Source: an uncultured Ruminococcus sp. (lineage in GTDB: Bacteria > Bacillota_A > Clostridia > Oscillospirales > Acutalibacteraceae). Taken from it: DNA of 37,287 nucleotides. Shown here piece after piece: positions 3,163 to 28,604 of this stretch. The notes beneath the pieces are model-generated. The model did no database searches. It was not told where the DNA came from and was given only the letters and a program-made list of their open reading frames with translations. Position numbers and translations under genes: made by a program. The stretch spans positions 1 to 37,287 of the forward strand of contig CADBXH010000005.1 in NCBI GenBank assembly GCA_902798605.1. The letters are read 5' to 3'. Each line of letters begins with the position of its first letter. Position 1 is the stretch's first letter.

Positions 3163-3175
3163 AGAGGTTTTGCCA

Positions 3176-6455: not shown

Positions 6456-6466
6456 GGAGAATAAAA

Positions 6467-7810: not shown

Positions 7811-7818
7811 GTGATATA

Positions 7819-8992
7819 ATGACAAAAATATTCAATACTACCAATGTGCAGCTTTTGAGCGGCACCTTCGGCTTGGAACGCGAGACCTTGCGCGTGACCG
7901 CCGAGGGCAGTATGGCGCTGCGAAAATCAGGCGGAAATCAACACCGGCGTTCACGACACCGCGCAGGGAGCGATCGATGAGCTTTCGGAGCATTCCAATC
8001 GGCTGACCGAGGAGATCAAAAAACGTGGCGAAAGGCTCTGGCTGTACTCCAATCCTCCGGCTATCAAAAACGCGGACGACATTCCCGTTGCCGTCTATGA
8101 GGGCGATCAGCAGGGCAAGCACAGCTACCGTCTGTATCTTGCCGAAAAGTACGGCAAATACAAAATGACGCTGTCGGGTATCCACGTAAATTACTCCCTT
8201 TCGGAAGAAATGCTGCGATACAGCTTTCCTCATTCCTCACACGGCGATTTTGTCAAATTCAAAAACCACGCTTACTTACGGCTGGCGCAGGGCTTGTTGG
8301 AATACGGCTGGCTGATCAACCTTCTTCTCTCCGCTTCTCCTGTCTGCGACGGTTCCTATTTTAGCCCCGACAGGCTCGGCGAAACGGTAATCACAAATTA
8401 CGCTTCCATTCGCTGCGGAAAAGAAGGCTATTGGAACACCTTTACGCCGATTATATTTTACGATGACATTTTAGAGTATGCCGGCAGTATTCAACGGTAT
8501 CTAAACAGCAGTACTCTTGCAGGCGTCGGAGAGCTGTATTATCCGATCCGCCTAAAGCCGAAGGGAGCCAACCGCCTGAATAATCTTGTTCAGAACGGCG
8601 TCAATCATATCGAGCTGCGCAATATCGACATCAATCCGTTTGCGGAATCGGGTATTGATGCGCGCGATTTGCAATTCATTGAGCTGTTGTGCCTTTGGAT
8701 ATACGCGGACTACAAAGACAAGCTCGCCTATAACGACCAAATCCGCGTGGTAGCAAATCTCAAAAACGCCGCAGTGTATGATATCGACAGCACGACGATA
8801 AACGGAAAGGAACCGCTCAGAGAGGCAGGCTTGCGCGTTCTGGGTAAAATGAAAGCATTTTACGGCGAAACAGAGCTCATCAAATATCAAATTCAAAAGC
8901 TGACAGAACCCGGCAAACGCTATGCCGAAAGAGTCTGTGATTCTTTGAAGAATAATTACATACTTGATTATCTCAGCAGAAATCATAATTAA
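7819..8992 (+). pseudogene. gshA: GshA/GshF-type glutamate-cysteine ligase, broken by a frame-shifting deletion
   Basis: The ATG at 7819 encodes a proper GshA start (residues 1-32 include TFGLERETLRV and GSMA), but after about 33 codons the frame turns to nonsense and stops near 7981. From 7919 onward the next frame reads CENQAEINTGVHDTAQGA, then LWLYSNPP, YRLYLAEKYGKYKM and the hallmark SGIHVNYS, continuing to 8992. The 16-20 residues that normally sit between GSMA and CENQ (the HPxxFG...RDF segment) are missing. A deletion whose length is not a multiple of three is the simplest explanation. Apart from it the gene is clean, without further stops, so the lesion is recent or an assembly error. 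It would encode a stand-alone gamma-glutamylcysteine synthetase of about 400 residues, without the ATP-grasp glutathione synthetase half of GshF. It lies 8 bp after the GCS2 gene. Confidence 0.85.
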
Positions 8993-9825: not shown

Positions 9826-9854
9826 TTGCAAACAGAACAATTTTATAATATAAT
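9826..9854 (+). promoter_or_regulatory. Sigma-A promoter of the VWA/tubulin-like operon
   Basis: TTGCAA (9826-9831), a 17-bp spacer and TATAAT (9849-9854) form a good vegetative promoter 85 bp before the VWA start codon. A second, overlapping TATAAT lies at 9844-9849. It is the only clear promoter I see ahead of the five-gene run. Confidence 0.72.
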
Positions 9855-9939
9855 GTTATTGGTTTTTTGATAAACAAAGACAAAAAATCGTGTTCTTACA
9901 AATTATAACAGCATTATTTTTTACAAAAAGAGGGATAAA

Positions 9940-12084
9940 ATGAAGAAAATATCAAGACGCTTTATTTGTATAGGTTTGGCGACAATGCTCTTCGTTGGTC
10001 TGCTGTTGACATATGTTCCTGTTCATGCGGAGGATAATGGTTCGTATTCAAAGGATTATACAACGCATGATATTGCGATCGTATTTGATAACTCCGGATC
10101 GATGTATGAGAATGAGTCTTGGTGCCAAGCGCTGTACTCAATCGAAGTTTTTGCCACAATGGTGGATTACGATCATGACAAGTTAGGTATCTACCCCATG
10201 GGACCCATCAGCGTCGGAAAAAACGGCAAGGAAAGCGGTGACAGACTGGACATCTCCAGTAAGGAAGAGGTTAAAAACATTGAACGTATTTATTGTAAAA
10301 ATACATCAGAGACGATCCTCGCGCCCGCTTATAAGGCATACGAATACTTGAAGAATTCGTCTGCTGACGAATGTTGGATGATCGTATTGACCGACGGTGC
10401 ATTTTTCTATGACAAGGATACAAAAGAAGAATCCAAAGAGAAAAAACCGGAGTGGCTGAACGGAAAGTTGAATTCTTTTGTTTCAAGTTCCGGCGGAAAA
10501 GTCAAGATTCAGTATTTAGGGTTTGCAGAAGCGTCGTCGCTCTCGGGAAATCCTTCAAAGAATTTCTTTGCTTCGAGAGCAGGCTCAGAGGCTGATTTAA
10601 CCAAAGAATTGGTTTCTATATGCAATACCATTTTCCAGCGCGACCAGCTTTCCTCTATTTCTTCTGACGGTCATTTTTCGATTGATGTTTCTATGAAGAA
10701 TATGTTTGCGTTCGTTCAAGGAAAGGGAGCAAAGATAAAGACGCTGAGCAAAGACAACGGTGACGTTATCGAAGAGGTGAACTCAACTATTCTTGAGGCG
10801 AGTAAAGAAGGCGGAACCGGCAGTCCGGGTTACAATCCCCCGGTAGCGGATGTATCGGGAAATATGGTTGAATACGGCAAATGTGATGCAGGGTCATACC
10901 ATTTGGATTATTCAGGCTCGGATGTACAAATCTTTTATGAGCCGGATGTTATCATAAAGTCGAAGCTCGCTGATAAGAATGGTAAGGAAATCACTGATTT
11001 TACCCAAGATGTGCTTCCGGGCGAATATACCCTGACATATGATTTGGTCGATCGCAGCGGAAAAAGCGTTAAGGGATCTGCTCTTCTCGGAGATGTAGAT
11101 ATCGGTGATGCCGTTGTGACAAACAACGGAAAATCCACCAAGGTGCCCTCGGGCGGTAAGATCAAGCTGGATAAAGATGACAAAACTTCTATTTCCATAG
11201 AGGCTACATATCTGAAAAACTATCATATAACAAACGAAGATGATCAAGGCATCCGAGAGATACATGTTTCTCCTCCGGAATTGGGTGATTTGGAAATATC
11301 GGCAAAGGTAGAACAATCCGGAAAATGGTATAAGCTCAGTGACCACGAGAATTGGAAACCTATTAGAGTAGATGTAAAATACAACGGCGAAAAGCTCAGT
11401 GATGAACAGATGAAAATGCTGAAGCCGGATTTCTCGTTTTCACCCGAACTGGATTATACGGTCAATACCATACCCGGAGAATCTGCCTATGAGATTTACA
11501 TCGGCAAAGATGAGAACAACGAGTATTCCGAACCCGGCTGCGGCAGATACAAGTTCAGCAGCAAGGTTGTTATGACGGATCAATACGGTCAGGAAACGGC
11601 AAGCAATACAGCGGACGGAAAGTTTGAAGTGCAGAATTATTCAAAGTTCTGGAGATGGCTGATATGGATCATCATAGTTGCAGCGCTCCTGTTGTTGATT
11701 TGGTTCATTTTGTCGCGCAAAGCATGGCCGAGAAAAATGGTGTTTGTTGAAAAAAGAGAAAACGGTGTGCCGGCAAAGAAGCCTATCACTCCGGGAGAAT
11801 CCATGATTTTGGTACCGGTATTCAGTGTTCTAAAAGCGACGACCAGAAAGAACACTACCTTGATGAAAAAGTTCAGCAAGAAATCGAATATCTATGTTGA
11901 ATCAATAAAGGCAAGACCTAATGTCGATGCCTACTATATCAACTTTATCCCTTACGAAAGAGGTGCCGGATTCAAAGATAGCGTCGGAAATCCGTTCTCC
12001 GGAGTAATCGGAAACAACACACAAATCAAAATTGTTTATAATGACGGCAAGGATGATCTTGACGGAGAGATAAAAATCAATTAA
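9940..12084 (+). CDS. Membrane-anchored VWA-domain protein with extracytoplasmic MIDAS
   Basis: The 714-aa protein has a signal peptide (positive KKISRR, hydrophobic stretch, cleavage likely after VHA at residue 30). A von Willebrand factor A domain starts near residue 43. The metal-ion-dependent adhesion site is complete: Asp50-x-Ser52-Gly-Ser54 in FDNSGSM, Thr125 in SETILAP, and Asp152 in LTDGAFF. Further beta-rich domains extend to about residue 560. One transmembrane helix (about 571-592) is followed by a basic stop-transfer and a cytoplasmic tail of about 120 residues, so the VWA domain is outside and the tail can contact cytoplasmic partners. It is the first gene of a same-strand run, 49 bp before the tubulin-like gene. 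VWA proteins paired with tubulin-like proteins have been proposed as parts of a membrane-remodelling machine; that role here is inference. Confidence 0.85.
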   Translation: MKKISRRFICIGLATMLFVGLLLTYVPVHAEDNGSYSKDYTTHDIAIVFDNSGSMYENESWCQALYSIEVFATMVDYDHDKLGIYPMGPISVGKNGKESGDRLDISSKEEVKNIERIYCKNTSETILAPAYKAYEYLKNSSADECWMIVLTDGAFFYDKDTKEESKEKKPEWLNGKLNSFVSSSGGKVKIQYLGFAEASSLSGNPSKNFFASRAGSEADLTKELVSICNTIFQRDQLSSISSDGHFSIDVSMKNMFAFVQGKGAKIKTLSKDNGDVIEEVNSTILEASKEGGTGSPGYNPPVADVSGNMVEYGKCDAGSYHLDYSGSDVQIFYEPDVIIKSKLADKNGKEITDFTQDVLPGEYTLTYDLVDRSGKSVKGSALLGDVDIGDAVVTNNGKSTKVPSGGKIKLDKDDKTSISIEATYLKNYHITNEDDQGIREIHVSPPELGDLEISAKVEQSGKWYKLSDHENWKPIRVDVKYNGEKLSDEQMKMLKPDFSFSPELDYTVNTIPGESAYEIYIGKDENNEYSEPGCGRYKFSSKVVMTDQYGQETASNTADGKFEVQNYSKFWRWLIWIIIVAALLLLIWFILSRKAWPRKMVFVEKRENGVPAKKPITPGESMILVPVFSVLKATTRKNTTLMKKFSKKSNIYVESIKARPNVDAYYINFIPYERGAGFKDSVGNPFSGVIGNNTQIKIVYNDGKDDLDGEIKIN

Positions 12085-12133
12085 TCAATTTAGCTTTTAT
12101 TAAGTGAGATTACATTAAGAAAAGAGGTTCAAA

Positions 12134-15100
12134 ATGGGAAAACTAATTGAAACTGTACAAGCGAATTCTGTTAACGCACCGGTCTTGTTTGTAGGTTGTG
12201 GCGGTATCGGATCAAAAATCATCAAGGGTGTAGCGGACAGAGCGCTCCATGATGATAACACTCTGCTTAGATTTGTCTGTATGGACACTGACGTCAATGA
12301 CATTATTAATGTTGATAAAGGCGCTAATGTCCGCTCTGTTACGACATCATCGACCGCTACGATCGAAACATATCTGAAGAATGATAAAATAGCCAAGAAT
12401 TATTGGTTCCCCGAAAACAAGATGCTTGATTCCAAGTCAGTTTCCGAGGGCGCAGGTCAGGTTAGAGCTATTTCCAGACTGGCTTTAAATGCAACTATAA
12501 AAGAAGGAAGAATCATTGAACTGTATAACGCCATCGATGAGCTTTTCCTTAAGGACGGCGGAAAGTTCAAACAGGCAATCAAGGTAATGATAGCGTCAAC
12601 TGTTGCCGGCGGAACAGGATCAGGTATTGCCATGGAAGTCGGAATGCTGATCCGTCATTATATCAATAAAAACTATCCCGAAGCTGCCGTAATGATTCGC
12701 GGTTTTATGGTTATGCCCGGTGTTATGGATACGGTCATTGACACCCAGAGTGAGCGCGACAGCATCCGCTCCAACGGCTATGCGACGATTAAGGAAATCA
12801 ACGCCTTTATGATGAAAGGCTCAGGTTTCTTTGACACTGTCCCGGAATTAAGACGCTATAAGGATCTCAGTATATCTATTCCAAGCGCTACATCCGGTGA
12901 AGAGAAGTTGAGCAACCTTCCGTTTGATTTCTGTTTCCTGATGGACAGAACAGACTCGAATTCCGGTAATATGATTTCACTGTCGCAATATATTAATTTT
13001 GCCTCGCAGGCGATTTATGAGCAGACTATCGGCCCAATGAACAAGGCCTCCAACAGTAAAGAAGATAATGTTCTTAAGCTTTGTATTCGTCCCGAGACGC
13101 TGGGCAGATGCCGTTTTGCCGGTATGGGTGCGTCCAAAATGGTTTATCCCTATGAGAAGATCAAAGAGTATATTGCCCTCAACTGGACTCGTGCGGCTAT
13201 AATCGGATCATCTGCAGATAAGAATCTGACAGACAAGCAGAGAGAGGAACTGTTAAAGAACTCTTGGCTGCAATACGATATTCAGTTCCGTCAGGAATTG
13301 AAGGAATATAATGAAAACCCGTCAGCAAGCGGCGAAGCTCCGACCATTGAGAAATCCTATGTTAACGCTATGAAGCAAGGCAAGGATGAAAGTGCGGGTA
13401 ATAACTTTACTGCAAATATCTGGCTGCGTGATTTGACCCCGAAGGTAATGAGCCTGTATAAACAGACAGGCCCCGTAAAACGCGAGGGCGGCCCGAAAAT
13501 CAAGACAGCTCTTGACTACATTAAGCCTGATTCCAGCACTCAGGCAGTTGCACAGTCATATCTGGCAACGATGATCAAAGAAGTAATGGAAACCCGTTTG
13601 GTTATGTCCTTCCCGGATTATCCGTCCAATCGTTCTATAGCGCAGCTCCCCTGCAGCGCAGAAGGCGCTTCTCACAAAGATAAATATGATGCTGTTGAGT
13701 CGATTGAGATTTTGTCAAAAGACAGCCGTGTTGCTGAGATCGCATCCGTTTTTGCAAAGGGAGTATTCGCCAGCAAGTCTCCGTTGGCAAAGCAAGGACT
13801 CGGCGACTTTATGCTCGAGAAGTACATCACCGTCAACAATAAGGCGATGCACCCCAATGCGATCCGCTTTATGCTTTACGAGCTGTATGATGTCCTCAAA
13901 AAGTGCGACGAGATATTCATCAAGGATATGAACGGCGATGAATATGAGAATATGCTTGAAGTCATCAAGTTCGGCGAAGGCGGAAAGTCCGGAATAGACA
14001 AGTTCCAGGTTGCGGGCTTAAAAGCAATGCACAAAGAAGCAAATCTGGACGAGATGTGCGTAGCCTGTGACAAAAAGGGAGTATTCCGCGGCACTACCGA
14101 AGGAGACAGCTGCGAGAAGTTCCTGACCGGTTATTACCAAAACGTTGAAAAATACATCATTAGTGTTATCGGACATAACATCTGTACAGTTGCAATGCCC
14201 AAGGTGTCAGCTCTTATCAACGCCTTTCAGGATTTCTTTAATTCGTTTGACTCCAAGGTTCCGGATATCGAGAAGAAGAAAGAAGATATCGTTACAGCAC
14301 TGGAGTTCAAAAACGGCGATTATGTATATAATCTGTTCAACAACGAGAAGATACTCAACTTCCTGTGTGCGAATGTTGATCGTCCCGCCGACACCGGAGA
14401 AGCAACTAATGCTCTTTATGCAAAGATCTTTGAATCTGTACGCGAGAATTCGTTTATCAAAGAAAAGCAGAGCGTAAATCCGTTTGGCTACGAGGCTCCC
14501 GAAGATGTTTTTGATGATGTAATCGTCAAGTATTATGAAAAGATGGTTGAAGATAACGTTGAAGCCATCAATGTTCAGAATATACTCCAAGCGATCAAGC
14601 TTGAATTCAATATCAATAATTCGCTTGAGGTTGAGGAAACCAGCCCCAACTGTAAGGAAAAGAAACAGAAGGAGATATCCACTCCGGAGAATCTGGCCAA
14701 GTATATTAGAAATACGATCAGCAAGTGCGAAAACCTTGCTTCGCCCGGAATCAAGAAAAATACACAGGATGAAGCAAGAACAGTCAAAGCATCAACTTGC
14801 AGCTCTTCTCTGATGGACGGCGCAGGTATCCGTATAAACGATTATCTGCCGGAGGCGACCCGTTCGGAAACCGTATCCGCATATGAGCTGAGATTCTTCC
14901 GCTCTGTTTATAACATCACGCCGACTCAGCTTTCAAAGCTCGCAGCGCCTTCTACCGAAGAGATCCAGGATCAGTTTGCACTCAGTTCCGAGGGCGAGCT
15001 GGATCTTCCCAGCGCCGGAGATTACTTCCGTGTATATCAGAAATACATGGATACTATCGGCCCCGACAGCAAAACAAGTGCTGTGATCACTCCTCATGTG

Positions 15101-15865
15101 GATCAGCGTTGGAATGCTATCTCCGTGCTCCCGGAGTTAGATATGGATTATCAGAAGAAAGTAATGAGCAAGATCCAGAAAGCGATGCTTTACGGCTTTA
15201 TCTACAAGAGAATCGTGATGAAGCCGATTTCGGACGATAGCAGCGACGAGAATACCGAAGAAAAAATCTACAGATATCTTGATGCCGACGAGTATAAGCA
15301 GGATCTTGTTGTATCTAACGGAACCAGATGCGATATGCTCTACGAGGTACTTGATGCGCTGTACTTCGACAGAAAGGCTGTTTCTATCTTAAGAGATTTC
15401 GTTAACGAGATCAGAATTAAGACTAAGGAAATCGGCTGCAAGAACATTAACGAGTCCACCTTCTTCAAAGAGCTTGACAAGCTGACCAGAAAAAGGGTCA
15501 TTAATCTGCCGGAGAAAGAAAAAGATGAAAAGATATCTCTGTTTGAGGTCGTATTGATGTACTGCAATTCCTTGCCCGCGCAAAATAAGGATGTAAGTGA
15601 AATGAGGATCATGATCAAATCTGTTATCGAGATGATCCATGATGAGATCGCGCTGTTTACAAACAATCCCGAAACAGTTATGTCGCGTTCTGCTGAAGCA
15701 CTGCTGGCGCAATTTAATCTTTTCGTCGATAACTATAAAAAGAACCAAAAGACATTAAGAGTCGGTAATTTCTCCGATGACGTAGTTGAAACCGCTCAGG
15801 GTACGTTGATTCGCTACTTCAAGGACCAAGATTTGATGAAATACGTTGAAAAAATTCAGGATTAA
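12134..15865 (+). CDS. Giant FtsZ/tubulin-like GTPase (Tubulin_2-type)
   Basis: The N-terminal domain has FtsZ/tubulin nucleotide-binding features: GCGGIGSK at residues 21-28 (FtsZ-like GxGGxG loop), MDTD at 50-53, the signature loop AGGTGSG at 158-164, and RSNGYATIKEINAF from 212, equivalent to the guanine-contacting Asn helix. At 1243 residues it is about three times FtsZ length; the remaining roughly 850 residues are a predicted helix-rich, highly charged region with no fold I recognise. It has no membrane segment or signal peptide, so it is cytoplasmic. It is not the division FtsZ: the GGGTGTG form and the C-terminal FtsA-binding peptide are absent. AAAGAGG precedes the ATG. The neighbours (VWA, two membrane proteins, ion channel) suggest a membrane-associated filament or switch. 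GTPase activity and polymerisation are inferred from family only. Confidence 0.85.
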   Translation: MGKLIETVQANSVNAPVLFVGCGGIGSKIIKGVADRALHDDNTLLRFVCMDTDVNDIINVDKGANVRSVTTSSTATIETYLKNDKIAKNYWFPENKMLDSKSVSEGAGQVRAISRLALNATIKEGRIIELYNAIDELFLKDGGKFKQAIKVMIASTVAGGTGSGIAMEVGMLIRHYINKNYPEAAVMIRGFMVMPGVMDTVIDTQSERDSIRSNGYATIKEINAFMMKGSGFFDTVPELRRYKDLSISIPSATSGEEKLSNLPFDFCFLMDRTDSNSGNMISLSQYINFASQAIYEQTIGPMNKASNSKEDNVLKLCIRPETLGRCRFAGMGASKMVYPYEKIKEYIALNWTRAAIIGSSADKNLTDKQREELLKNSWLQYDIQFRQELKEYNENPSASGEAPTIEKSYVNAMKQGKDESAGNNFTANIWLRDLTPKVMSLYKQTGPVKREGGPKIKTALDYIKPDSSTQAVAQSYLATMIKEVMETRLVMSFPDYPSNRSIAQLPCSAEGASHKDKYDAVESIEILSKDSRVAEIASVFAKGVFASKSPLAKQGLGDFMLEKYITVNNKAMHPNAIRFMLYELYDVLKKCDEIFIKDMNGDEYENMLEVIKFGEGGKSGIDKFQVAGLKAMHKEANLDEMCVACDKKGVFRGTTEGDSCEKFLTGYYQNVEKYIISVIGHNICTVAMPKVSALINAFQDFFNSFDSKVPDIEKKKEDIVTALEFKNGDYVYNLFNNEKILNFLCANVDRPADTGEATNALYAKIFESVRENSFIKEKQSVNPFGYEAPEDVFDDVIVKYYEKMVEDNVEAINVQNILQAIKLEFNINNSLEVEETSPNCKEKKQKEISTPENLAKYIRNTISKCENLASPGIKKNTQDEARTVKASTCSSSLMDGAGIRINDYLPEATRSETVSAYELRFFRSVYNITPTQLSKLAAPSTEEIQDQFALSSEGELDLPSAGDYFRVYQKYMDTIGPDSKTSAVITPHVDQRWNAISVLPELDMDYQKKVMSKIQKAMLYGFIYKRIVMKPISDDSSDENTEEKIYRYLDADEYKQDLVVSNGTRCDMLYEVLDALYFDRKAVSILRDFVNEIRIKTKEIGCKNINESTFFKELDKLTRKRVINLPEKEKDEKISLFEVVLMYCNSLPAQNKDVSEMRIMIKSVIEMIHDEIALFTNNPETVMSRSAEALLAQFNLFVDNYKKNQKTLRVGNFSDDVVETAQGTLIRYFKDQDLMKYVEKIQD

Positions 15866-15918
15866 TGGTCGACTGATGCATTATTGTACCGTATTTGATT
15901 CGGTAAGGTGGTGAAAAA

Positions 15919-17946
15919 TTGTTTACAGTAATTATTTGTCATAAGTCTGTGATAAAAGATTTCACAAATAAATATAAAATACATCTTAAACCATTTTTGG
16001 ATAATGATAATTATGTGTTTTGTGCATGGAATCCTCAAGGGGAAACCCTTGAGGAGGCTGTGCCCGAGCTTCAAAAGATAGTTCGCGTCAAAAAAGAGTG
16101 GCGGGCAATCGTTGTTGCCGATAATCACACAAAGGTTTTGGATATTTACAAAGAAAATCCCTTTGATTATGTCGATTCTAAGCGAATTCCCAAACGTCTT
16201 GATTCCGCAGAACAAATCACAGAATACAGGGAATATGTTAGAAACGCTACAGAAAAGGCGCTCAGCAACCCGCTTATGAAGCTGTCCGTATGGCTTGGAG
16301 GTTCTGCTGTAAGGATAAGACCGGAATCTCCCGGGAAGGATATCCTTGAATTAGAGCCGGCATCCGATGAATATAAAAAGTATCTGAAAGAATCAAATAC
16401 ATCCGTTGAGGCGATGGAGCTTGCTATGGCGCGCGCGCATCGTTTTGATAGTATTACAGATAACTTTGAATTAAGCGGTGAAGTCTATAATCCGCCTAAA
16501 ATGGTTTTGACCATAGCCGAACGTGCTATCGATGTGAATCTTAAAGAGGCCGCGTACGCGTGGACTCGCCATACGGAATATGATTATTCCACATTTATTG
16601 AAGATAATCTGTATTCAAATAAATTGCGTTGCGTGATCTATGAAATGTCCCGCGTAAAGGGAGAGATCCGTGAAAACGATTATTTTAATCTCCTTGTGAC
16701 TGTTATGATCATTGCCCATAATGATATCCATTCGGATGTTTTAAAAATCGGCAAGGTCTATTCGGTAACGCCTGTCATAGACGACGTGAAGATGAAAGAG
16801 CTGTGTAACGACTATCTGTTCAAGCTGTCGGCTACAAAGGATAAGCTGGATAAGCTTCGTTATCGTCGCAGAACAGAGCTTAACAAAACTATTGACGATG
16901 ATCGTGCTGAAAAGGAGTTTGAAAAAGAGTCGGTGATCCCTGTTGCTGTCGGGAAGAAATATGACGTTGAGAAGCTTTTGTGTGAGTATGATGAAATCGG
17001 TTTGTCAACCGACTGTCCCGGCAATGAGGAAAGCTATTGGAATCGGCAGAACAAAGAGATAAAAAAGCGTTTTGCCCGTTTTCTCAGACAACCTCAGAGG
17101 AGCATCGAAAAAGCAGTGGAGGGCGATTTCCGCGCTTATGATACTATTGACGATGAAAATGTAAAACTACTGACAAAGTATCAAAAACAGGATATTATTA
17201 TAAAGCTGCTTGAAGAAGAGCAGGCTATGATAGAAACGCCTACATCCAAGGTGTTCAACAAGTCGGAGTATTTCAAACAGCTTGATGATAAGGATGAAGA
17301 GATCAAAGATAATATTCGCAAGAGAATGAGTCGAAAAAGCAGTGTTCTTGTCGGTATTATTTCACTTGTTTTGTTCTTTATCGGCTTTATCCCGCTTTTG
17401 ATCAGCGAGTTTAATAATTTTGGTACGGGAGCCATGTCTGTGATCTTGATTTCGATTGCGATGGCTGTCGTTGCTGTTGCTGTAATGATAACTCTGTTCG
17501 CTTTCAGGCAGCAACTGATTTCAAAATTCAAAGCTTTTAACAACACAATGAAATCTATCTTCGATGAGATCGTTTCTTCGTTAGGAGGTTTCTCTGATTA
17601 TTTGAGTCATGCTTGTAACGTAAAAAGAGAATTCTCTGTGTTAGATGCGATTAAAAACGAATCGTATGATTACTTCAAGATTTATAAAAAACATGAAATA
17701 GATATTGACAGGTGTATGTACGATATAACAAATCTGTTTTCGGATTATGTTGACGAGACATATATTCCGGCTGAAGAGCCTGTCCCGTATAATTATAATT
17801 TTGATCAGCCGCAGAATTATTCGTTTGATTTGCCGTACAGCGATACGGAAAAAGAGATCGAATTCCTGCAAAGAGGCAACATCATAACAATACCTGTTGA
17901 TTTTATTAAGAGTATAAGACTGAAAAGGGAGGAGCTATATGACTGA
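15919..17946 (+). CDS. Two-helix membrane protein of the tubulin-like operon, unknown fold
   Basis: The 675-aa ORF starts with TTG at 15919, chosen because AAGGTGGTG (15905-15913) sits 5 nt upstream and the first residues (FTVIICHKSV) already look like a beta strand of a folded domain. The first 470 residues are soluble, with an alpha/beta N-terminal part (to about residue 75) and a long charged helical region including KLDKLRYRRRTELNKT. Two adjacent membrane segments follow, about 474-498 and 505-529, separated by a short Phe/Gly/Asn-rich turn, so both large domains should face the same side, most likely the cytoplasm. The C-terminal 145 residues are again soluble. The stop overlaps the next gene's start by 8 bp, implying translational coupling. 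I do not recognise the family; from position it is probably a membrane receptor for the tubulin-like protein. Confidence 0.72.
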   Translation: MFTVIICHKSVIKDFTNKYKIHLKPFLDNDNYVFCAWNPQGETLEEAVPELQKIVRVKKEWRAIVVADNHTKVLDIYKENPFDYVDSKRIPKRLDSAEQITEYREYVRNATEKALSNPLMKLSVWLGGSAVRIRPESPGKDILELEPASDEYKKYLKESNTSVEAMELAMARAHRFDSITDNFELSGEVYNPPKMVLTIAERAIDVNLKEAAYAWTRHTEYDYSTFIEDNLYSNKLRCVIYEMSRVKGEIRENDYFNLLVTVMIIAHNDIHSDVLKIGKVYSVTPVIDDVKMKELCNDYLFKLSATKDKLDKLRYRRRTELNKTIDDDRAEKEFEKESVIPVAVGKKYDVEKLLCEYDEIGLSTDCPGNEESYWNRQNKEIKKRFARFLRQPQRSIEKAVEGDFRAYDTIDDENVKLLTKYQKQDIIIKLLEEEQAMIETPTSKVFNKSEYFKQLDDKDEEIKDNIRKRMSRKSSVLVGIISLVLFFIGFIPLLISEFNNFGTGAMSVILISIAMAVVAVAVMITLFAFRQQLISKFKAFNNTMKSIFDEIVSSLGGFSDYLSHACNVKREFSVLDAIKNESYDYFKIYKKHEIDIDRCMYDITNLFSDYVDETYIPAEEPVPYNYNFDQPQNYSFDLPYSDTEKEIEFLQRGNIITIPVDFIKSIRLKREELYD

Positions 17947-20900
17947 TGGCATAAGTGCTATGGTTGATATTTTAAAAACCGCAGTAGCTGTTATCCCTTT
18001 TCTTTTGTTGTGTTTACTCAGCATAAAAGTAAACCTTAAAAAGCCAATCAGGGACAGACAGTTTTTAATGCCGATAATTGCGCTTGTTTTTGTTTTGTTC
18101 CTGATGTTTGGGATGCGGATGATCAATAACTGGGTATTATCGTTGATGCACGCTATTCCGGGTTGGATAAACAGCTTTTTGGATTGGATCCCCGATCAGG
18201 TCTCTAACGCGATTTCAACACCGATCAACAGCGTATTGGATTACCTGCGAAGCTTAGATCTCAATTACTGGATCATGTATATATCCAATACCTTGATCAT
18301 CGTGGTATATCTGATCGTCAAGAGGATCATTATTACCATAATGAAAGTCCGGTTTAAAAAACGCAGCAGTATTCACGATGCGGTCTGCGCTAAGTTTTAT
18401 GAACACGATGCCGAGAATGATGTGTGGTGCCTGAAGGACAATATGTCCCAGACGCGAACGGTTTTAAAGGTAGTGTTTTATACAACGGTCGTCGTTGCTT
18501 CTGTTTTGATGATAGTATCAGGCAGAATGTATTTAAACGGGCTTTTGGCTGATATCTATTACCCCGTTGTCAGCGTCTTGCTGATCGGCGAAGTCTTTTT
18601 CTTCATGGATGGATTTACAAAGCAGGAATATTCCCAGAACGTTTTGGGGGATGACGAGAATTCATATCGTATCGTCAACTATTCTCTGCTTAGAAAATAC
18701 TTGAGAAGCCTCTTCTCGGATAAGCTGTTATCAGAGAACACAAATGTAAATAATGCGCTGGAATATGATGTTACCAACGAAGAGGTTCTGGAGCGCCTCC
18801 TTGATGATGCCGATCAGAAGGTAGTTAATTTTGCGCTGTTTTACAGTAAGCTGAATGCGAGCGGCGTTGAATTGGATCATAACTATCTGAATTCTTCCCT
18901 TGATTTACTCAAGGGGAAGAGTATCCTGTTCAACAATCCGTTTTACGAGGATTTGATACCATATGCATTCTATCCCTTGAACAGAACATTGTTGAGCCGA
19001 CAAAAGGTTCTGGTGATCCTCGGCCGTCATGCGATCGAGGACGATGTCAGGCAGTGGATTATGGATGGTATAGAAGCGGTTACCAATATCCCGTTTATGT
19101 GGAAAATCGATTTGCTTGACGACGAAGAAAAAGATATAGATATAGGCATCATTACCCGTTCAAAAGTAATAGATGCAAAAATGCACGAAATAAACGAGAA
19201 CTTCCTGAAGAAGGTCGGGTTCGTCATTATTTTAGAGCCCTCAAAGCTTGTATCGACCGCGCAGATTGGATTAAACCTTCTTGTAAAAAGGATCCGCGGC
19301 TATGACGACAAGCCTGTAGTGTACTGTATGTGTGACAAAAACTGTGACGGTTTGGTCGACGCGATGTCCCACATTTTGATGACCAGTTTTACGGAGGTTT
19401 CCGCTACCGGAAAACATCTCGGAACGTCATCTTATATGTGTTGGGAGGCAGACAGCGAGTATCTTCATCATAGAATGTTCCCAAATGTTTCTCGCTATCT
19501 CGGAATGGGTACGGAATTGTCTTTTGCTGCGTTAAAAAATCAGGTTGCAAAAACGGTCTGGTACGGCGGCGATGCTTTTCCTGTTACGGATATCAGATGG
19601 ATCGATCGACAGTATTACTATGAATTGATGAAGTTTGCCGCTCTTCCGACCGGGCAGGATGCAATGAACCGGTATTTTGTTACGACTCCGAATATGTGGA
19701 GCGCAAAAGTCAGCAAGAACAACTACTTTACCGTAGAAGACGAATCTTGTAATATGTTTGAAATATTGAGGGATTTCTCAACACGTTCTACGGAACAGGG
19801 CTTTATCAATATTGTTTCTACAGATTATTTGTTAAAGGACTATATGGCATCCAACGACACCATATTTGAGACTGATGCAAAGGCTATACCGAATATGGTT
19901 GCCGATTATGCCCGAACAAACCGAAATGTTATCCTCAGACTGATGCTGTTGCTCAGTATCACTTTGGTTAACGAAGAGTCTATCAGAAAAGAATTCTCTC
20001 TGATGGGTTTGCCGTTGCTGAACACAAGGCGGCAGCTTTGGTTTGAGATTTATAAGTGTATATCAGACATTGAAACTATTTCCGGACTTCCCGAGAATTA
20101 TCGTGAAGCTGTAAGCGAGGTTTCCGGAAGAAGTATTCCTTCTCCGAATGATTCGACGATATTCAAAATCGACATTATCAAATCGGAAGAAAAATACAAC
20201 TACGAAATCGGAAAAATGGAAGTCGTATATCACATTGCCAATTCCCGATTTATCGATCGTTTTGTTAACGAGCTGAAATCTTCCAGTTATGTAGCTGAGG
20301 ACGAAAAAGGCGAACAGTATTTTCTCGGTTCGGAAATCAGAGGTCATATTTATCAGAAGTATCTTCCCGGACAGTTCTTTACCTTTGACGGAAAGTATTA
20401 CGAAATGCAGTATCTGACAGCAGAGAACCATGTGCTTGTCCGCAGAGCTGCCGATCATATCAACGGAAGACCTGTGTATCGTCAGTTCAGAGAGTATGCT
20501 TTTTCTGCAATCAGACCTTCTGACCGTATCGGATCCGTAAAGGAAATAGACGGAATAAAAATCATAAAGGAGTACGCTGATATTTCCGTGAGTACGCCAG
20601 GATATCTGCGTATGGAAAGATACAATGACTTCAAAACTGCAAAACCCGTTATGTTTGAAGGCGAAAAAACCGGTATTCCTGTGCGTAAATATCATAATAA
20701 AGCTTTTCTCAGAATCGATTTCCCCGATTCGGACGGCTTTACCCCAAATGTAAGGTATACGATAACTGTTTTGATGAATGAAGTTTTCAAGACTTTGTTT
20801 GCTGAAAATCAGCCGTTTATCTCTGCGGTTACCGATGACAGTTTTATTCCCCAAGACGCGGAATGCAAACCCTTTACATATTCTATACACGGCGACGGAA

Positions 20901-23581
20901 TAGAGCTTTCTTCAAATAGTATTTATATAATTGAAGACAGCCAGCTCGATCTTGGCCTCATTATTACAGTTGAGCGCAATCTGAAAAGGATATTCCAGAT
21001 TATCCAAGATTATATCGCTTGGAACAAACGCGAGATAAAGCTGAGTTTGAATCCACCTGCCGTAAATACGCCTATGCAAATCGCACCGGAAGATATAGGC
21101 GAGTACAAGCCTAAAAAGAAAGATAATATTTTCAAGAGGATCATCGCTAAAATTGCGTCGTTCTTCAAAAGAAAGAAAAACCGGTCGGAAACGGATAACA
21201 TCCGTACACCCGAGCCGGTAGTACCGACAGTACCGGAACCCGAGCCGGTAGTACCGACAGCACCGGAACCCGAAAAAACACCGGAGGATCCGGATATGAA
21301 CGGCGCTAAAGAAAAAACAGAAAATGATGCAGCGGAATCGACGCCGGATCAAAAGGATATCGTCTCAGATCCGGGCGAAGATACCCCCGATGTCGCTTCG
21401 GCAGAGATCGAACCGGCGCCGCCGGCAAATATGCCCGGCGGACCTGAAGAAACAGTGAATGTTTCTTCAAATGATGAAAAGAAATCTGCCTTCGATTTTA
21501 CTCGGGCTCCATACCATAAGCGTTACTATCTTTTGTATGGTTACGACACAGAGCCGACCATGATGGATTTGAACGCAACCAACATATACTTGACAAAGTT
21601 TGGTTATAATGACAATCCGCTGCGATTTGCCAGAAACGGCAGACGAATCGCCAAATATGTTGAGGCTACTTTCAAACCAAATAAGAAAGATGCAAGGTAT
21701 TGTGATTTCTGCGGCAGCGAAATTTACGGCGTAGAATATGAAACGATATCGGATGGCCGCGACAGATGTATCAGTTGCAGCCGTACTGCGGTCAAGACCG
21801 AAGAAGAATTCAGGAAAATCTTTGAAGACGTTAAGCGCAATCTGGAATCTTTCTTTGGAATCAAGTTGAATGTCGGCGTCAAGGTGCAGATGGTTGACAG
21901 CCAAAAGCTGCATCGTCGTCTGAAAAAAGCATTCGTACCCACTCCGTCGCAAGACGGACGTGTTCTGGGTGTTGCTATCAAAGACAAAAACGGGTATTCA
22001 TTATTGGTTGAGAACGGTTCGCCCCGTATCATGTCTATGCTGACGATCGCCCATGAACTGACCCATATTTGGCAGTATACGAATTGGCAGGATAAGTATA
22101 TCAAAAGGCGATACGGAAAAGCGCTGTGGTTACAGGTTTATGAGGGTATGGCAAAATGGGTCGAGATCCAGTATGCTTACCTGATAAACGAACCATCGCT
22201 TGCAAAACGCGAGGAAATCATCACCGTCAATCGCGATGACGAATACGGACATGGATATATCCGCTACAAGGCAAATTATCCTATTTCCGAAAGCGCTGTT
22301 CTCAACGATAACACGCCGTTTATGAATAAAGAGATGCCGCTCGATCCCATGTATTGCGGAGACGTCAGCGTTATGCTGGATCCAAATAACGGCGCTCGGG
22401 GCTATCAGGATGACCTGCTTGATGAGGATGAGGATTATATTGACGTCGAAGAAGAGCAGGATATAGTCGAAAAGAGAGTTTTTGAACCTTGCCATCTGCG
22501 CGATGTAAACAACACACCTCTTTATGCATATCAACAACTGACAAAAGAAGAGCAGGTGTTTTATGATTTGTTCTTGTCTGCGGTGAAAAACCATTCTTTG
22601 TCGCCGGAATCCATTCCTCCGTTTGTGACGGAACAGGTTCTTATCAAAATCAGAGATTATGTGCTGATAGACCATCCCGAGATCTTCTGGTTCAGCGGAA
22701 AGATCAACTACCTCTTTGAGAAAGAATCCGGCAGAATCACCAGTTGTGAATTTGTTTATTCCATGACCCCGGAAGAAGCAGCAGAAAAGGAGCGGTTGAT
22801 CGAAGAATCTCTCACATCGTTTTTGAGCGGAATCACCGATAAAATGAGTGATTACGAGGTCGCTGTTGCAGTTTACAACAATATTATCGATCTTGTAGAT
22901 TATGACTCACTGAGGCTGGAACAGGAAAAATCCAAAAATAAGATAAATGATGATGTTCCGGATGACTTGCGTTCGATATTTGGTGTCTTTGTTAACAAGA
23001 AGGCAGTTTGCGCCGGATACGCGAAAGCAACTCAGTATTTGTTTAATCGCTTGGGAATCGAATGCGTATATGTTTCGGGTATCGGAGATGACGGTCCCCA
23101 CGCATGGAATCTGGTCAATCTTGAAGGAGAATATTACTACATAGATACTACGTGGGATGATCACTCAAACACAAAGGACGGAAACGATTCCTCCAGAGAA
23201 ATTACATATGATTATTTCTGTATCACAACAGAACTATTGCTGCGTGATCATAAGCCTGACGATACAATTGTTTTGCCTGAATGTAATTCTCTAAAGTGTA
23301 ATTATTACTACAGGAACGGGCTGTTGTTGGATCATTATAATTTTACCGAAATCAGATCAATTATCAAAGCCGCCGTTGCCGATGGAAATACCACTGTTCC
23401 TCTAAAGGCGATGACGAGCGATGTATATCAACAAATGTATGATTCGCTGATCGACGGTAAGAAGACAGAGGATGTAATCAGATATCTGAATCTTGATTCA
23501 GCTACACGTGTCAGCACATCCTACTCGTATTCCTATAGCGAGGAAAAACTGAGGATTTCTATCACGTTAAGCAGATTATAA
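17939..23581 (+). CDS. 1880-aa polytopic membrane protein with LIM-like zinc ribbon, DA1-type peptidase and transglutaminase-like domain
   Basis: The start at 17939 lies inside the previous gene, with GGAGG upstream. About five membrane segments occupy the first 230 residues (roughly 11-29, 42-62, 110-134, 175-196, 203-226). A large domain of about 250-1080 follows (strands such as KVLVILGRHAIEDD and VGFVIILEPSKL; no Walker A seen), unrecognised. A Pro/Glu/Val linker (1091-1120) and acidic stretch lead to a zinc ribbon with C1255, C1258, C1277 and C1280. Then comes a metallopeptidase with H1372-E1373xxH1376 (HELTHIWQ) and a probable third ligand Glu1402 in YEGMAKW; this order matches LIM plus DA1-like peptidases. 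The C-terminal transglutaminase-like domain has Cys1691 (AVCAGYA), His1721 (HAWN) and Asp1736 (DTTWDD), a complete triad. Expected activities are zinc-dependent proteolysis and thiol-based cleavage or crosslinking; the substrate is unknown. Confidence 0.82.
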   Translation: MTDGISAMVDILKTAVAVIPFLLLCLLSIKVNLKKPIRDRQFLMPIIALVFVLFLMFGMRMINNWVLSLMHAIPGWINSFLDWIPDQVSNAISTPINSVLDYLRSLDLNYWIMYISNTLIIVVYLIVKRIIITIMKVRFKKRSSIHDAVCAKFYEHDAENDVWCLKDNMSQTRTVLKVVFYTTVVVASVLMIVSGRMYLNGLLADIYYPVVSVLLIGEVFFFMDGFTKQEYSQNVLGDDENSYRIVNYSLLRKYLRSLFSDKLLSENTNVNNALEYDVTNEEVLERLLDDADQKVVNFALFYSKLNASGVELDHNYLNSSLDLLKGKSILFNNPFYEDLIPYAFYPLNRTLLSRQKVLVILGRHAIEDDVRQWIMDGIEAVTNIPFMWKIDLLDDEEKDIDIGIITRSKVIDAKMHEINENFLKKVGFVIILEPSKLVSTAQIGLNLLVKRIRGYDDKPVVYCMCDKNCDGLVDAMSHILMTSFTEVSATGKHLGTSSYMCWEADSEYLHHRMFPNVSRYLGMGTELSFAALKNQVAKTVWYGGDAFPVTDIRWIDRQYYYELMKFAALPTGQDAMNRYFVTTPNMWSAKVSKNNYFTVEDESCNMFEILRDFSTRSTEQGFINIVSTDYLLKDYMASNDTIFETDAKAIPNMVADYARTNRNVILRLMLLLSITLVNEESIRKEFSLMGLPLLNTRRQLWFEIYKCISDIETISGLPENYREAVSEVSGRSIPSPNDSTIFKIDIIKSEEKYNYEIGKMEVVYHIANSRFIDRFVNELKSSSYVAEDEKGEQYFLGSEIRGHIYQKYLPGQFFTFDGKYYEMQYLTAENHVLVRRAADHINGRPVYRQFREYAFSAIRPSDRIGSVKEIDGIKIIKEYADISVSTPGYLRMERYNDFKTAKPVMFEGEKTGIPVRKYHNKAFLRIDFPDSDGFTPNVRYTITVLMNEVFKTLFAENQPFISAVTDDSFIPQDAECKPFTYSIHGDGIELSSNSIYIIEDSQLDLGLIITVERNLKRIFQIIQDYIAWNKREIKLSLNPPAVNTPMQIAPEDIGEYKPKKKDNIFKRIIAKIASFFKRKKNRSETDNIRTPEPVVPTVPEPEPVVPTAPEPEKTPEDPDMNGAKEKTENDAAESTPDQKDIVSDPGEDTPDVASAEIEPAPPANMPGGPEETVNVSSNDEKKSAFDFTRAPYHKRYYLLYGYDTEPTMMDLNATNIYLTKFGYNDNPLRFARNGRRIAKYVEATFKPNKKDARYCDFCGSEIYGVEYETISDGRDRCISCSRTAVKTEEEFRKIFEDVKRNLESFFGIKLNVGVKVQMVDSQKLHRRLKKAFVPTPSQDGRVLGVAIKDKNGYSLLVENGSPRIMSMLTIAHELTHIWQYTNWQDKYIKRRYGKALWLQVYEGMAKWVEIQYAYLINEPSLAKREEIITVNRDDEYGHGYIRYKANYPISESAVLNDNTPFMNKEMPLDPMYCGDVSVMLDPNNGARGYQDDLLDEDEDYIDVEEEQDIVEKRVFEPCHLRDVNNTPLYAYQQLTKEEQVFYDLFLSAVKNHSLSPESIPPFVTEQVLIKIRDYVLIDHPEIFWFSGKINYLFEKESGRITSCEFVYSMTPEEAAEKERLIEESLTSFLSGITDKMSDYEVAVAVYNNIIDLVDYDSLRLEQEKSKNKINDDVPDDLRSIFGVFVNKKAVCAGYAKATQYLFNRLGIECVYVSGIGDDGPHAWNLVNLEGEYYYIDTTWDDHSNTKDGNDSSREITYDYFCITTELLLRDHKPDDTIVLPECNSLKCNYYYRNGLLLDHYNFTEIRSIIKAAVADGNTTVPLKAMTSDVYQQMYDSLIDGKKTEDVIRYLNLDSATRVSTSYSYSYSEEKLRISITLSRL
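21209..21268. repeat. 30-bp tandem duplication encoding the Pro/Glu linker
   Basis: Two adjacent 30-bp units (21209-21238 and 21239-21268) differ at one base and encode PEPVVPTVPE and PEPVVPTAPE. They lie in the flexible linker before the zinc-ribbon domain, where copy number can vary by slippage without breaking the frame. Confidence 0.85.
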
Positions 23582-23616
23582 ATCAAATGTCGCATCATTG
23601 CGAAAGGTGACAAAGT

Positions 23617-25737
23617 ATGAGGAAAATTATCAGAGAAAAACTTAGTATTCAACTGGCCAAAAACCCGGGGAGAATGGTACTTGTAGGAATATTGATTTTC
23701 AATATCGTATTCTTTATAGTAGCGGCGCTTTTTATCAGCGCAATGCCGGTAAGAGGTACCGAGCATATGAGCTTTTTAGAGGCTGCGTATTATACAATAA
23801 CGATGATTCTTGATGCAGGATGCATAGAAGGCGTCATTGAGGATATCGGAAGTTCCGGTGTTTTTCTCGCCGTTGTTTGTCTGGTAATAATACTGATCGG
23901 TATGATTACGTTTACCGGCGCGGTGATCGGTTATGTTACAAACTGGATCTCTGAATTCATTAAAAATGCAAATACCGGTACCAGAAGACTCAGAATATCC
24001 AACCACACGGTTGTTTTGAACTGGAATACAAGAGCTTCTGAAATCATCAACGATCTTATGTTCAGCGAACAAAAAGAAAAAGTTGTTGTTCTGGTGGGTT
24101 CGCGAAAGGAAGAAATAAAAAAAGAAATAGAGGAACGCCTGAGCGAAACGATCTCAAAGGAAAATGCAGAGGTTCACAGGTATGCAGCAGGACTGTCGTT
24201 TTTCAAAAGACATCAGTACATCAGAAAGCATAAGCTCCGCCGGAATGTGACCTTTATTGTCCGTCAAGGCGATGTTTTCTCGCTCAAACAATTAAAGGAT
24301 ATTCAGCTTGAGCAAGCAAAAGCTATTGTGATTTTGGGCAACGATGTAAACAACTCGATATGTAAATTTGAAACCGAAGTGCGAAACGAAGTGAACAGCC
24401 GCGGCAATTCGCAGACGATCAAGACTTTGATGCAGGTTGCGGATATCACAGCTTCCGATTATTCAGTGGATAATCAGAAAATCATTGTTGAGATAACAGA
24501 TACGTGGACGCAAGACATCGTAGAAAAAATCATTCGCAGTAAACAGGTTGACAAAAAATGTAATATCGTTCCCGTGTTTGTTAATCAAATCTTAGGGCAA
24601 ATTTTGTCGCAGTTTTCTTTGATGCCGGAGTTGAATATGGTTTACAGAGAGCTGTTTTCCAATAAAGGCGCGGCGTTCTATACACAGCAAGTCAATGTCG
24701 ATGATGAAGAAGCGTATATTGCAAGCTATATCCGTAATCACAACCATGCGATTCCGCTTGCTTCACTTAAAGACAAGGATGTGTCATATTTCTTCTATGT
24801 TGCCGAATCCGAGCAAAGTATATCCAAAACCTCCGGAGAAACCAATTCAGACTATTCGGTTAAGATGAATTATGATTACTGGATCGAAAAGAAGAATGTG
24901 ATCATCCTCGGCCATAACAGCAACTGCGATGAGATTATGGATGGCTTTTCTGCTTTCAGATGTGAGTGGAATTACGCTGATGAAAAAGGCGGAGAGATAC
25001 TCAGAGTCACGGTCGTAGATGATAAAGAACACCTGGAGAAGAAGAATTATTACCGTCAATATCCATTTGTTATAGAAACCGTAGTAGCGGATATTTACGA
25101 CAAAGATATTATTTGTGAAACTATCAACAAGGTGATCTCATATACCGATGAGGACACCAGCGTTTTGATCCTTTCTGATGATTCGGCGCTTTCCGAAAAC
25201 ATCGACGCCAACGCACTTGCAAATTTGATATATGTTCAGGATATTATCAAAGACAAGATAGCTGAAAATCCACTGTTTGATGTCAACAGCATTGATGTTG
25301 TTGTCGAAATTATCGATCCTAAGCATCATGATATCGTTAACAGTTACGATGTTAATAATGTTGTCATCAGTAATAGATATATCAGTAAGATGATTACACA
25401 GATAGGCGAAAAGGAAGCAATATACAACTTCTACAGCGACATCCTTACCTATGATATTGACACTGGTGAGGGTAACGGATATGAGAACAAAGAAGTATAT
25501 GCTAAGAAAGTATCAACGTTTTTCAGGGAGTTGCCCGCGCCATGTAAAGCAGACGAGTTTATAAGGGCAGTCTATTATGCGTCTTCTCATCCGGATCCCG
25601 GCTATCCTTTCAATCCTACGTTAGTGATTGGATATGTGCGCAAATCCGGCGAATTGATTATTTTCAGCGGCGACTTGTCAACAATTGACGTTAAGCTTGA
25701 AAACGATGATAAAATCATTGTATATACACCACATTGA
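23617..25737 (+). CDS. CASTOR/POLLUX-like ion channel with RCK domains
   Basis: The 706-aa protein has a two-helix pore module: TM1 about 21-43, pore helix EAAYYTITMIL (55-65), filter D66-A67-G68-C69, TM2 about 82-108. It is followed by two Rossmann-type RCK units beginning NHTVVLNWNTRASEI (from 129) and KKNVIILGHNSNCDEI (near 427). The filter is not the TVGYG of potassium channels; the DAG core recalls the ADAGN filter of plant CASTOR/POLLUX channels, and the long double-RCK cytoplasmic part also fits that family. Ion selectivity (K+, Ca2+ or other) cannot be told. It is the last gene of the run, 35 bp after the giant protein, and is followed by a hairpin. A channel in a tubulin/VWA operon may let the system sense or change membrane ion flux; that is inference. 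Confidence 0.82.
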   Translation: MRKIIREKLSIQLAKNPGRMVLVGILIFNIVFFIVAALFISAMPVRGTEHMSFLEAAYYTITMILDAGCIEGVIEDIGSSGVFLAVVCLVIILIGMITFTGAVIGYVTNWISEFIKNANTGTRRLRISNHTVVLNWNTRASEIINDLMFSEQKEKVVVLVGSRKEEIKKEIEERLSETISKENAEVHRYAAGLSFFKRHQYIRKHKLRRNVTFIVRQGDVFSLKQLKDIQLEQAKAIVILGNDVNNSICKFETEVRNEVNSRGNSQTIKTLMQVADITASDYSVDNQKIIVEITDTWTQDIVEKIIRSKQVDKKCNIVPVFVNQILGQILSQFSLMPELNMVYRELFSNKGAAFYTQQVNVDDEEAYIASYIRNHNHAIPLASLKDKDVSYFFYVAESEQSISKTSGETNSDYSVKMNYDYWIEKKNVIILGHNSNCDEIMDGFSAFRCEWNYADEKGGEILRVTVVDDKEHLEKKNYYRQYPFVIETVVADIYDKDIICETINKVISYTDEDTSVLILSDDSALSENIDANALANLIYVQDIIKDKIAENPLFDVNSIDVVVEIIDPKHHDIVNSYDVNNVVISNRYISKMITQIGEKEAIYNFYSDILTYDIDTGEGNGYENKEVYAKKVSTFFRELPAPCKADEFIRAVYYASSHPDPGYPFNPTLVIGYVRKSGELIIFSGDLSTIDVKLENDDKIIVYTPH

Positions 25738-25743
25738 TTAATG

Positions 25744-25771
25744 GGGCTGTCGCAAAAATGAGCGACAGCCC
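25744..25771 (+). terminator. Hairpin ending the tubulin-like operon
   Basis: GGGCTGTCGC (25744-25753) and GCGACAGCCC (25762-25771) form a perfect 10-bp stem with an 8-nt loop, starting 7 bp after the channel stop codon. The tail TTAAAAAATT is poor in U, so termination may be incomplete and alkD could be reached by readthrough. Confidence 0.6.
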
Positions 25772-28490: not shown

Positions 28491-28575
28491 TGTGATTCTC
28501 CTTGGTTTTATTATTTTAAGCGAAGGATTTAGAGACCGAACTCCGCTGATAGTCGGCAAAAACCGAACGTATCGT

Positions 28576-28604
28576 ATTGTAACACAAACAAGCGATAATT
28601 GCAA
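28576..28604 (-). promoter_or_regulatory. Sigma-A promoter of the VUT-SDR-luxS operon
   Basis: On the minus strand, TTGCAA (28604-28599) and TACAAT (28581-28576) are separated by 17 bp. Transcription should start near 28569, leaving an untranslated leader of about 80 nt before the transporter start at 28490. Confidence 0.72.

Follow-up and report, generated by a model that had tools for sequence, protein, structure and literature searches.

A clostridial FtsZl1/VWA-type operon encoding a predicted membrane-anchored pseudo-helicase with peptidase-like domains

We analyzed a 37,287-nucleotide stretch of DNA from an uncultured Ruminococcus sp. (GCA_902798605.1, contig CADBXH010000005.1, positions 1-37,287, forward strand; hereafter the window), focusing on an operon of five plus-strand open reading frames (ORFs) whose ends confirm intergenic gaps of 49, 53, -8 and 35 bp. 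These encode an exported von Willebrand factor A (VWA) protein, a 1243-aa tubulin-like protein, a 675-aa and an 1880-aa protein that we name C and D, and a 706-aa channel (Table 1). Computation establishes the gene order, the domains, the loss of helicase ATP-site motifs from protein D and the absence of DO-GTPase2 from the D-type genomes searched; it also shows that the close relatives examined keep one or more peptidase-type catalytic sets. Our favored reading, held tentatively and at somewhat less than even confidence, is that the operon represents a modified FtsZl1/VWA membrane system, with a membrane-anchored pseudo-helicase carrying peptidase-like domains in place of the GTPase module found in described relatives. 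A preliminary description of the same DNA had read it as a five-gene operon linking a VWA sensor, a tubulin-like switch, a DA1 peptidase-transglutaminase protein and a channel; this was right about the kind of operon and its domains, but channel membership, the DA1 label and the core of protein D all required revision.

The arrangement of the operon is conserved far beyond chance. A contig scan with the tubulin-like protein gave 60 loci, on which the five proteins were then placed by tblastn, with the window added; they come mainly from clostridial metagenome-assembled genomes, with a few Erysipelotrichaceae-type names and two isolates. Pseudoflavonifractor sp. An44 and Flavonifractor sp. An112 are isolates carrying the operon. 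Where the contig left room, the VWA gene lay upstream of the tubulin-like gene in 59 of 60 loci, the protein C gene followed the tubulin-like gene in 56 of 57, and the protein D gene followed that of C in 54 of 54. The channel gene was nearby in only 14 of the 43 loci where 1.5 kb or more was available (12 downstream of D, 2 upstream of the VWA gene). Inter-locus distances were correlated between D and C (Mantel r 0.83, 44 loci), C and tubulin (0.77, 43 loci), VWA and tubulin (0.71, 33 loci), D and channel (0.61, 11 loci) and D and tubulin (0.42, 40 loci), and for each of these five pairs between 0 and 3 of the 999 permutations reached the observed value; the weakest of all pairs was tubulin-channel (r 0.31 over 10 loci, 26/999 permutations as high). 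Because of these gene-order counts and distance correlations, we take the unit to be four genes with the channel as an optional partner, so that the co-occurrence of all five genes across Clostridia envisaged earlier holds for the first four.

Protein D and the channel are sparsely distributed. In a family sample of 200 genomes, strong matches to each were found in 6 (one weak match dropped from each), and the two occurred together in 3 (Fisher p 2.9e-4), in one of these (G570) on different contigs. Three genomes carried the channel without protein D (L137, L138, L139), and no other component lay around these channels in the stretches examined, one contig being 5.4 kb. In a phylum sample of 398 genomes, the D profile matched only the sample's centre genome (0/397 others). 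The D counts in both samples are lower bounds, because the first-pass search can lose distant forms.

Hydropathy and motif analysis of the VWA protein indicated a signal or transmembrane segment (residues 8-26), a VWA domain (~44-169) with the metal ion-dependent adhesion site (MIDAS) sequence DNSGSM, and a C-terminal transmembrane helix (574-592) followed by a tail (593-714) predicted to be cytoplasmic, in keeping with the export and topology first proposed. Pfam detects the domain weakly in the window's protein (E 0.063), and a profile of 41 sequences retrieved no PDB chain at E<=0.01; the MIDAS is retained as DxSxS in 53 of 54 VWA proteins and as DxSGSM in 46 of 54, the window's included. 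The neighboring 1243-aa protein, as the preliminary description had recognized, belongs to the tubulin superfamily, matching PF13809 strongly and PF00091 at E 4.6e-6, below the Pfam cut-off. Its T4 loop reads GGTG[ST]G in 51/51 tubulin-like proteins, the window's included, and G21, G23, G24 and G26 of the T1-like loop are invariant across 46 sequences; a profile search with residues 1-360 matched no PDB chain, FtsZ and tubulin included, at E<=0.01. The Tubulin_2 group has been called sparse and irregular, and was set aside, in PMC9871819 (here and below, papers are cited for the part of their content that was covered).

FtsZl1 was linked in 2010 to VWA proteins, kinases, a GTPase and OmpA-like proteins, with membrane remodeling proposed but no function tested (Makarova and Koonin 2010, PMC2875224); we found no tested function in the literature searched. 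The operon resembles these systems in its Tubulin_2 protein adjoining an intact-MIDAS VWA protein within a predicted operon with membrane proteins, which bears out the earlier assignment to this kind, and differs in that DO-GTPase was not found in the D-type genomes searched. Firmicute loci with tubulin-domain, VWA and GAP1/DO-GTPase proteins have likewise been described as conflict systems (Kaur et al. 2020, PMC7159879); those GAP1-N2/DO-GTPase systems, whose tubulin-domain proteins carry a coiled coil, share the pairing of tubulin-domain and extracellular VWA proteins with our loci, and loci of that kind are present in the order we sampled (G707, G724). Among 197 genomes of this order sample, 15 had a Tubulin_2 match: 8 with proteins C and D (G001, which is L051, among them), 3 in which a divergent D follows a TM-hairpin (transmembrane-hairpin) C-like gene unmatched by the C profile, 2 (G707, G724) with DO-GTPase, VWA and two tubulins, and 2 at a contig end or on a fragment whose type was left unassigned. 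The pseudo-helicase type thus accounts for 11/15 and the GTPase type for 2/15. DO-GTPase2 (PF19993) was found in 0 of 16 D-type genomes (the window's own genome standing outside this count) and in both GTPase-type genomes, no relatives of the GTPases or the GAP1-like protein of those two genomes occurred in 74 D-type locus records (window included; some overlap or repeat), and the protein C and D profiles found no match in GTPase-type loci. The main text of PMC2875224, its supplements being outside our scope, mentions no helicase, protease, peptidase, transglutaminase or ion channel and does not refer to protein C or D, and the four-gene combination had no description in the literature searched (supplements and subscription papers likewise outside scope). 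Three Tubulin/VWA/DO-GTPase loci were seen in the same order (L116, L117, L118), one of which also encodes a NADase_transloc domain protein (L118:4253-6016).

The largest part of protein D had gone unrecognized in the preliminary description, which had identified its transglutaminase fold. Beyond a region of five predicted transmembrane helices, the protein is predicted to be cytoplasmic, and its core is, in the structural model, a membrane-anchored MrfA/YprA-type superfamily 2 helicase fold without an ATP site: the predicted fold extends over both RecA lobes and the segment behind them (RecA1-RecA2-OB/CON/DUF1998). The Walker A motif is absent from all 49 aligned sequences, its place taken by a segment in which P334 and F335 are 100% conserved, and the modeled loop after the strand has 3 residues and no P-loop. 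The DExx motif is likewise absent from 49/49, replaced by the invariant pair E433-P434, and a motif III-like SAT is kept in 37/49. Residues 1-1090 contain no invariant or near-invariant cysteine past position 469, the conserved finger lying further on (1255-1280); the DUF1998 four-cysteine cluster is lost in Dpd (PMC12458937). Protein D is like the MrfA/YprA (DUF1998) helicases, including those of DISARM, Dpd, Druantia and ARMADA, in predicted fold, and unlike them in being membrane-anchored, in having lost Walker A and DExx, in carrying C-terminal peptidase-like domains, in lacking a conserved cysteine cluster within residues 1-1090, and in showing no sequence similarity to them that profile comparison could detect. 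The main text of the YprA-family survey (PMC12458937) does not mention tubulin, VWA, transmembrane or transglutaminase, and FtsZ appears once, in a reference title. A helicase repurposed as a scaffold in the membrane, its ATP-site motifs gone from every aligned sequence, would be a striking pseudoenzyme.

Two peptidase-like domains follow the core. A CxxC-CxxC finger and the zincin motif HE[LM]TH[IV]WQ were present in 39 of 40 D proteins of at least 1300 aa, window included; in L056, the fortieth, and at six loci where the D ORF is shorter (L006, L022, L033, L036, L053, L055), a finger with HExxH was encoded by the next ORF. The four finger cysteines and the H, E and H of HExxH were invariant in 46 D sequences, a set chosen by the HExxH motif. 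The DA1 label initially given to this region is no more than a weak match, and "zinc finger + zincin peptidase" is safer: Pfam matches across the 46 members comprised DUF6782 (43), DUF6055 (42), BSP (33) and DA1-like (8 at E<=0.05, best E 0.0044, below cut-off; the listed matches did not include the window), the DA1-like score of one member was 15 bits where the cut-off is 25, and every Pfam match in the zincin region of the window's D fell below cut-off. Protein D thus shares the finger-then-HExxH arrangement with DA1 and related zincins (DUF6782, DUF6055, BSP), and differs in its sub-threshold matches and in being a membrane protein. The transglutaminase assignment was sound, with PF01841 (Transglut_core) scoring 28.3 bits against a cut-off of 23 in the window's D and Cys-His-Asp kept. 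This domain occurs in the window's D group and in one divergent group (L124-L126, matching the main group by profile at E 2e-36), where it is kept and HExxH is lost, and is absent from many others. We counted both catalytic sets among the closest relatives of two queries, which are not random samples. In set 1 (117 relatives of at least 1300 aa from the best 120 of 775, counting the window's D itself), 113 had HExxH, 106 had the Cys-His-Asp triad in a relaxed form and none lacked both; in set 2 (119 such relatives from the best 120 of 163), none had HExxH, 116 had the relaxed triad and 3 had neither. A stricter triad pattern was present in 98/117 and 106/119, respectively. Beside these domains, we observed separate transglutaminase-like proteins directly after the D ORFs of two loci (L006:21006-22253, L055:13890-15209), each with its own N-terminal membrane or signal segment.

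Protein C is modeled (pLDDT 87.1, pTM 0.65) with a small alpha/beta N-terminal domain, long helices and a beta C-terminus, and carries a TM hairpin at residues 477-495 and 508-526. Structural comparison gave no significant match, and a weak, non-significant likeness to bacterial dynamin and F-BAR helices appeared among many helical proteins. In L124, L125 and L126, a TM-hairpin protein of 716-788 aa stands in place of C, ahead of D. The channel has two transmembrane helices by hydropathy (22-40, 81-99) and then a cytoplasmic region. Although it matches Castor_Poll_mid weakly (Pfam E 0.099), its family profile of 11 sequences matches DMI1 (1.2e-7) and CASTOR (3.4e-6) in the PDB, with no single stretch passing alone, and so agrees with the CASTOR-like nature suggested earlier. 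The likeness to CASTOR/DMI1 (PMC6697748) lies in the profile similarity of the cytoplasmic region, the differences being that the window's channel is bacterial, has two transmembrane helices by hydropathy and is an optional operon partner.

The most economical reading of these sequence features is a sensor-to-effector relay at the membrane, with the VWA domain outside, the putative tubulin-like GTPase inside and proteins C and D in the membrane. The extracellular VWA domain would sense a ligand or envelope change via its metal site, and its cytoplasmic tail, together with the TM-hairpin protein C, would relay the signal to the tubulin-like GTPase, which might assemble or disassemble at the membrane. 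Movement of the tubulin-like protein could act on the pseudo-helicase as a rigid two-lobed scaffold and release the zinc peptidase and/or the transglutaminase-fold domain. These peptidase-like domains may sit beside the inner membrane face on the flexible linker after the polybasic helix, and the released domain would cleave or modify a target in the cytoplasm or the membrane; the CASTOR-like channel, where present, could add a calcium or ion step. The apparent replacement of the GTPase by a pseudo-helicase with peptidase-like domains suggests that these systems may converge on effector control at the membrane.

Several observations weigh against this reading. The topology of D was assigned by hydropathy and charge only, and the segment after its fifth helix has 0.14 lysine plus arginine per residue, little more than the 0.07 and 0.11 of the outer loops. 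Profile comparison of D with helicases (hhalign) did not reveal kinship, with probabilities of 0.15 and 0.11 out of 100, and 23 of the 40 column shuffles reached an equally high score. The replacement argument depends on two GTPase-type genomes. Peptidase activity of D is inferred from motifs, and transglutaminase folds include other enzymes too. Finally, the T6-H7 elements of FtsZl1 were not confidently found by Makarova and Koonin (PMC2875224).

Among the alternatives, an anti-phage or conflict system, in which the helicase-derived core would still bind nucleic acid, such as DNA arriving at the membrane, and trigger the peptidase domains (and, at some loci, the channel) to stop infection, is unlikely and nonetheless the strongest competitor. 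Conflict-system lists include tubulin/VWA/GTPase loci (PMC7159879), the presence of D is patchy in the phylum and family samples, and a few neighbors have hits to models of defence genes (29 families of PADLOC at E<=1e-5, TIR_2 in 2/97). However, no PADLOC family occurs in more than 2 of 97 neighbors; PADLOC has no match for the VWA, tubulin, D or channel proteins and a weak one for protein C (PycTM, E 0.018); Pfam shows no nuclease domain in the five proteins; operon GC content matches the flanks across loci; and the viral-contig, plasmid and phage collections contained no relatives of protein D. A phage, plasmid or defence-island origin found no support and was rejected, as those collections lacked relatives of D and defence families were scarce among neighbors.

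A membrane-remodeling or vesicle machine, whose tubulin-like filaments would bend the membrane while the other proteins anchor and regulate them, also seems improbable. It has the FtsZl1-VWA setting of the Makarova and Koonin proposal in its favor (PMC2875224), as well as the membrane character of C and D, besides VWA, by hydropathy, and the long helices, TM hairpin and weak dynamin/F-BAR likeness of protein C. Yet all structural matches of C are below significance, remodeling offers no reason for all 117 relatives of set 1 to keep one peptidase-type site or more, and remodeling by an FtsZl1 protein was not demonstrated in the literature covered.

More doubtful still is a combined scheme in which a dead helicase of the YprA defence lineage acts as a membrane nucleic-acid receptor and a tubulin-like polymer switches on tethered peptidases. 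Here the trigger would be nucleic acid at the membrane or firing of the VWA sensor, upon which the polymer would reorganize the complex; if true, this would be a previously unknown kind of system, a membrane protease relay gated by tubulin. That the D core is an active motor, with another nucleotide site or chemistry at E433-P434 and D466/D470/D474, is very improbable: the altered sites are very highly conserved, with many 100% columns, but the P-loop is missing from the model and DExx from every aligned sequence. Chance co-transcription of unrelated genes, to which the D-less channels might point, is contradicted for the four core genes by their near-uniform order and can hardly be credited.

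Table 1. Features of the operon in the window
Feature	Position	Strand	Basis
Promoter-like TTGCAA-17-TATAAT, 5' of operon	9826..9854	+	consensus match only
Exported VWA protein, 714 aa	9940..12084	+	ORF, hydropathy, MIDAS motif
FtsZl1/Tubulin_2 protein, 1243 aa	12134..15865	+	PF13809 E 5.8e-54
Tubulin-like protein: T1-like glycine loop GCGGIG, residues 21-26	12194..12211	+	alignment
Tubulin-like protein: T4 nucleotide loop GGTGSG, residues 159-164	12608..12625	+	motif, alignment
Protein C, 675 aa, TTG start	15919..17946	+	ORF, structure model
Protein D, 1880 aa: transmembrane region, predicted pseudo-helicase, zinc finger/zincin, transglutaminase-like domain	17939..23581	+	
D: five predicted transmembrane helices, residues 11-220	17969..18598	+	hydropathy, positive-inside counts
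D: MrfA/YprA-type helicase fold, residues 243-1033	18665..21037	+	predicted structure
D: Walker A position, replaced by NNPF	18932..18943	+	alignment
D: motif II (DExx) position, replaced by E433-P434	19235..19240	+	alignment
D: motif III-like SAT, residues 488-490	19400..19408	+	alignment
D: polybasic helix, residues 1064-1080, before proline/glutamate-rich linker	21128..21178	+	model, locally low confidence
D: CxxC-CxxC zinc finger, LIM/zinc-ribbon-like	21701..21778	+	motif, alignment
D: HELTH zincin motif	22052..22066	+	motif, alignment
D: transglutaminase-like core, residues 1633-1736, Cys-His-Asp kept	22835..23146	+	Pfam, alignment
CASTOR/DMI1-like channel, 706 aa, optional partner	23617..25737	+	family profile, hydropathy

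The single promoter proposed for the operon is present as a consensus match, but in the scanned region such sites outnumber those in shuffles only mildly (50 versus a shuffle mean of 40.2, standard deviation 6.3). The operon has a GC content of 42% in the window and its flanks 47-51%; recent acquisition on this ground was rejected, as the operon was lower in 20 of 39 loci, with no trend (Wilcoxon p 0.74). Beyond the channel, no recurrent accessory gene stood out among locus neighbors: the largest neighbor cluster covered 14 loci, mostly ~600 aa and in mixed positions and strands, and a second probably consists of antisense ORFs of the tubulin-like gene.

The window contains no tRNA and no Rfam family at gathering score. 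Upstream of the operon lie a SpaA/DUF7601 surface protein and, next to it downstream, a sortase (271-3970, plus strand), likely a pilus or surface-protein pair, and a class-II glutamine amidotransferase with two consecutive glutamate-cysteine ligase-like genes (5682-8992, plus strand). Downstream, a short-chain dehydrogenase and a Vut_1 vitamin-uptake-like transporter (27097-28604, minus strand) diverge from a two-module nonribosomal peptide synthetase of 2435 aa (29099-36406, plus strand) with two condensation, two AMP-binding and two carrier domains and a C-terminal NAD-binding reductase domain. Two-module synthetases with a terminal reductase in gut clostridia are known to make dipeptide aldehydes or pyrazinones.
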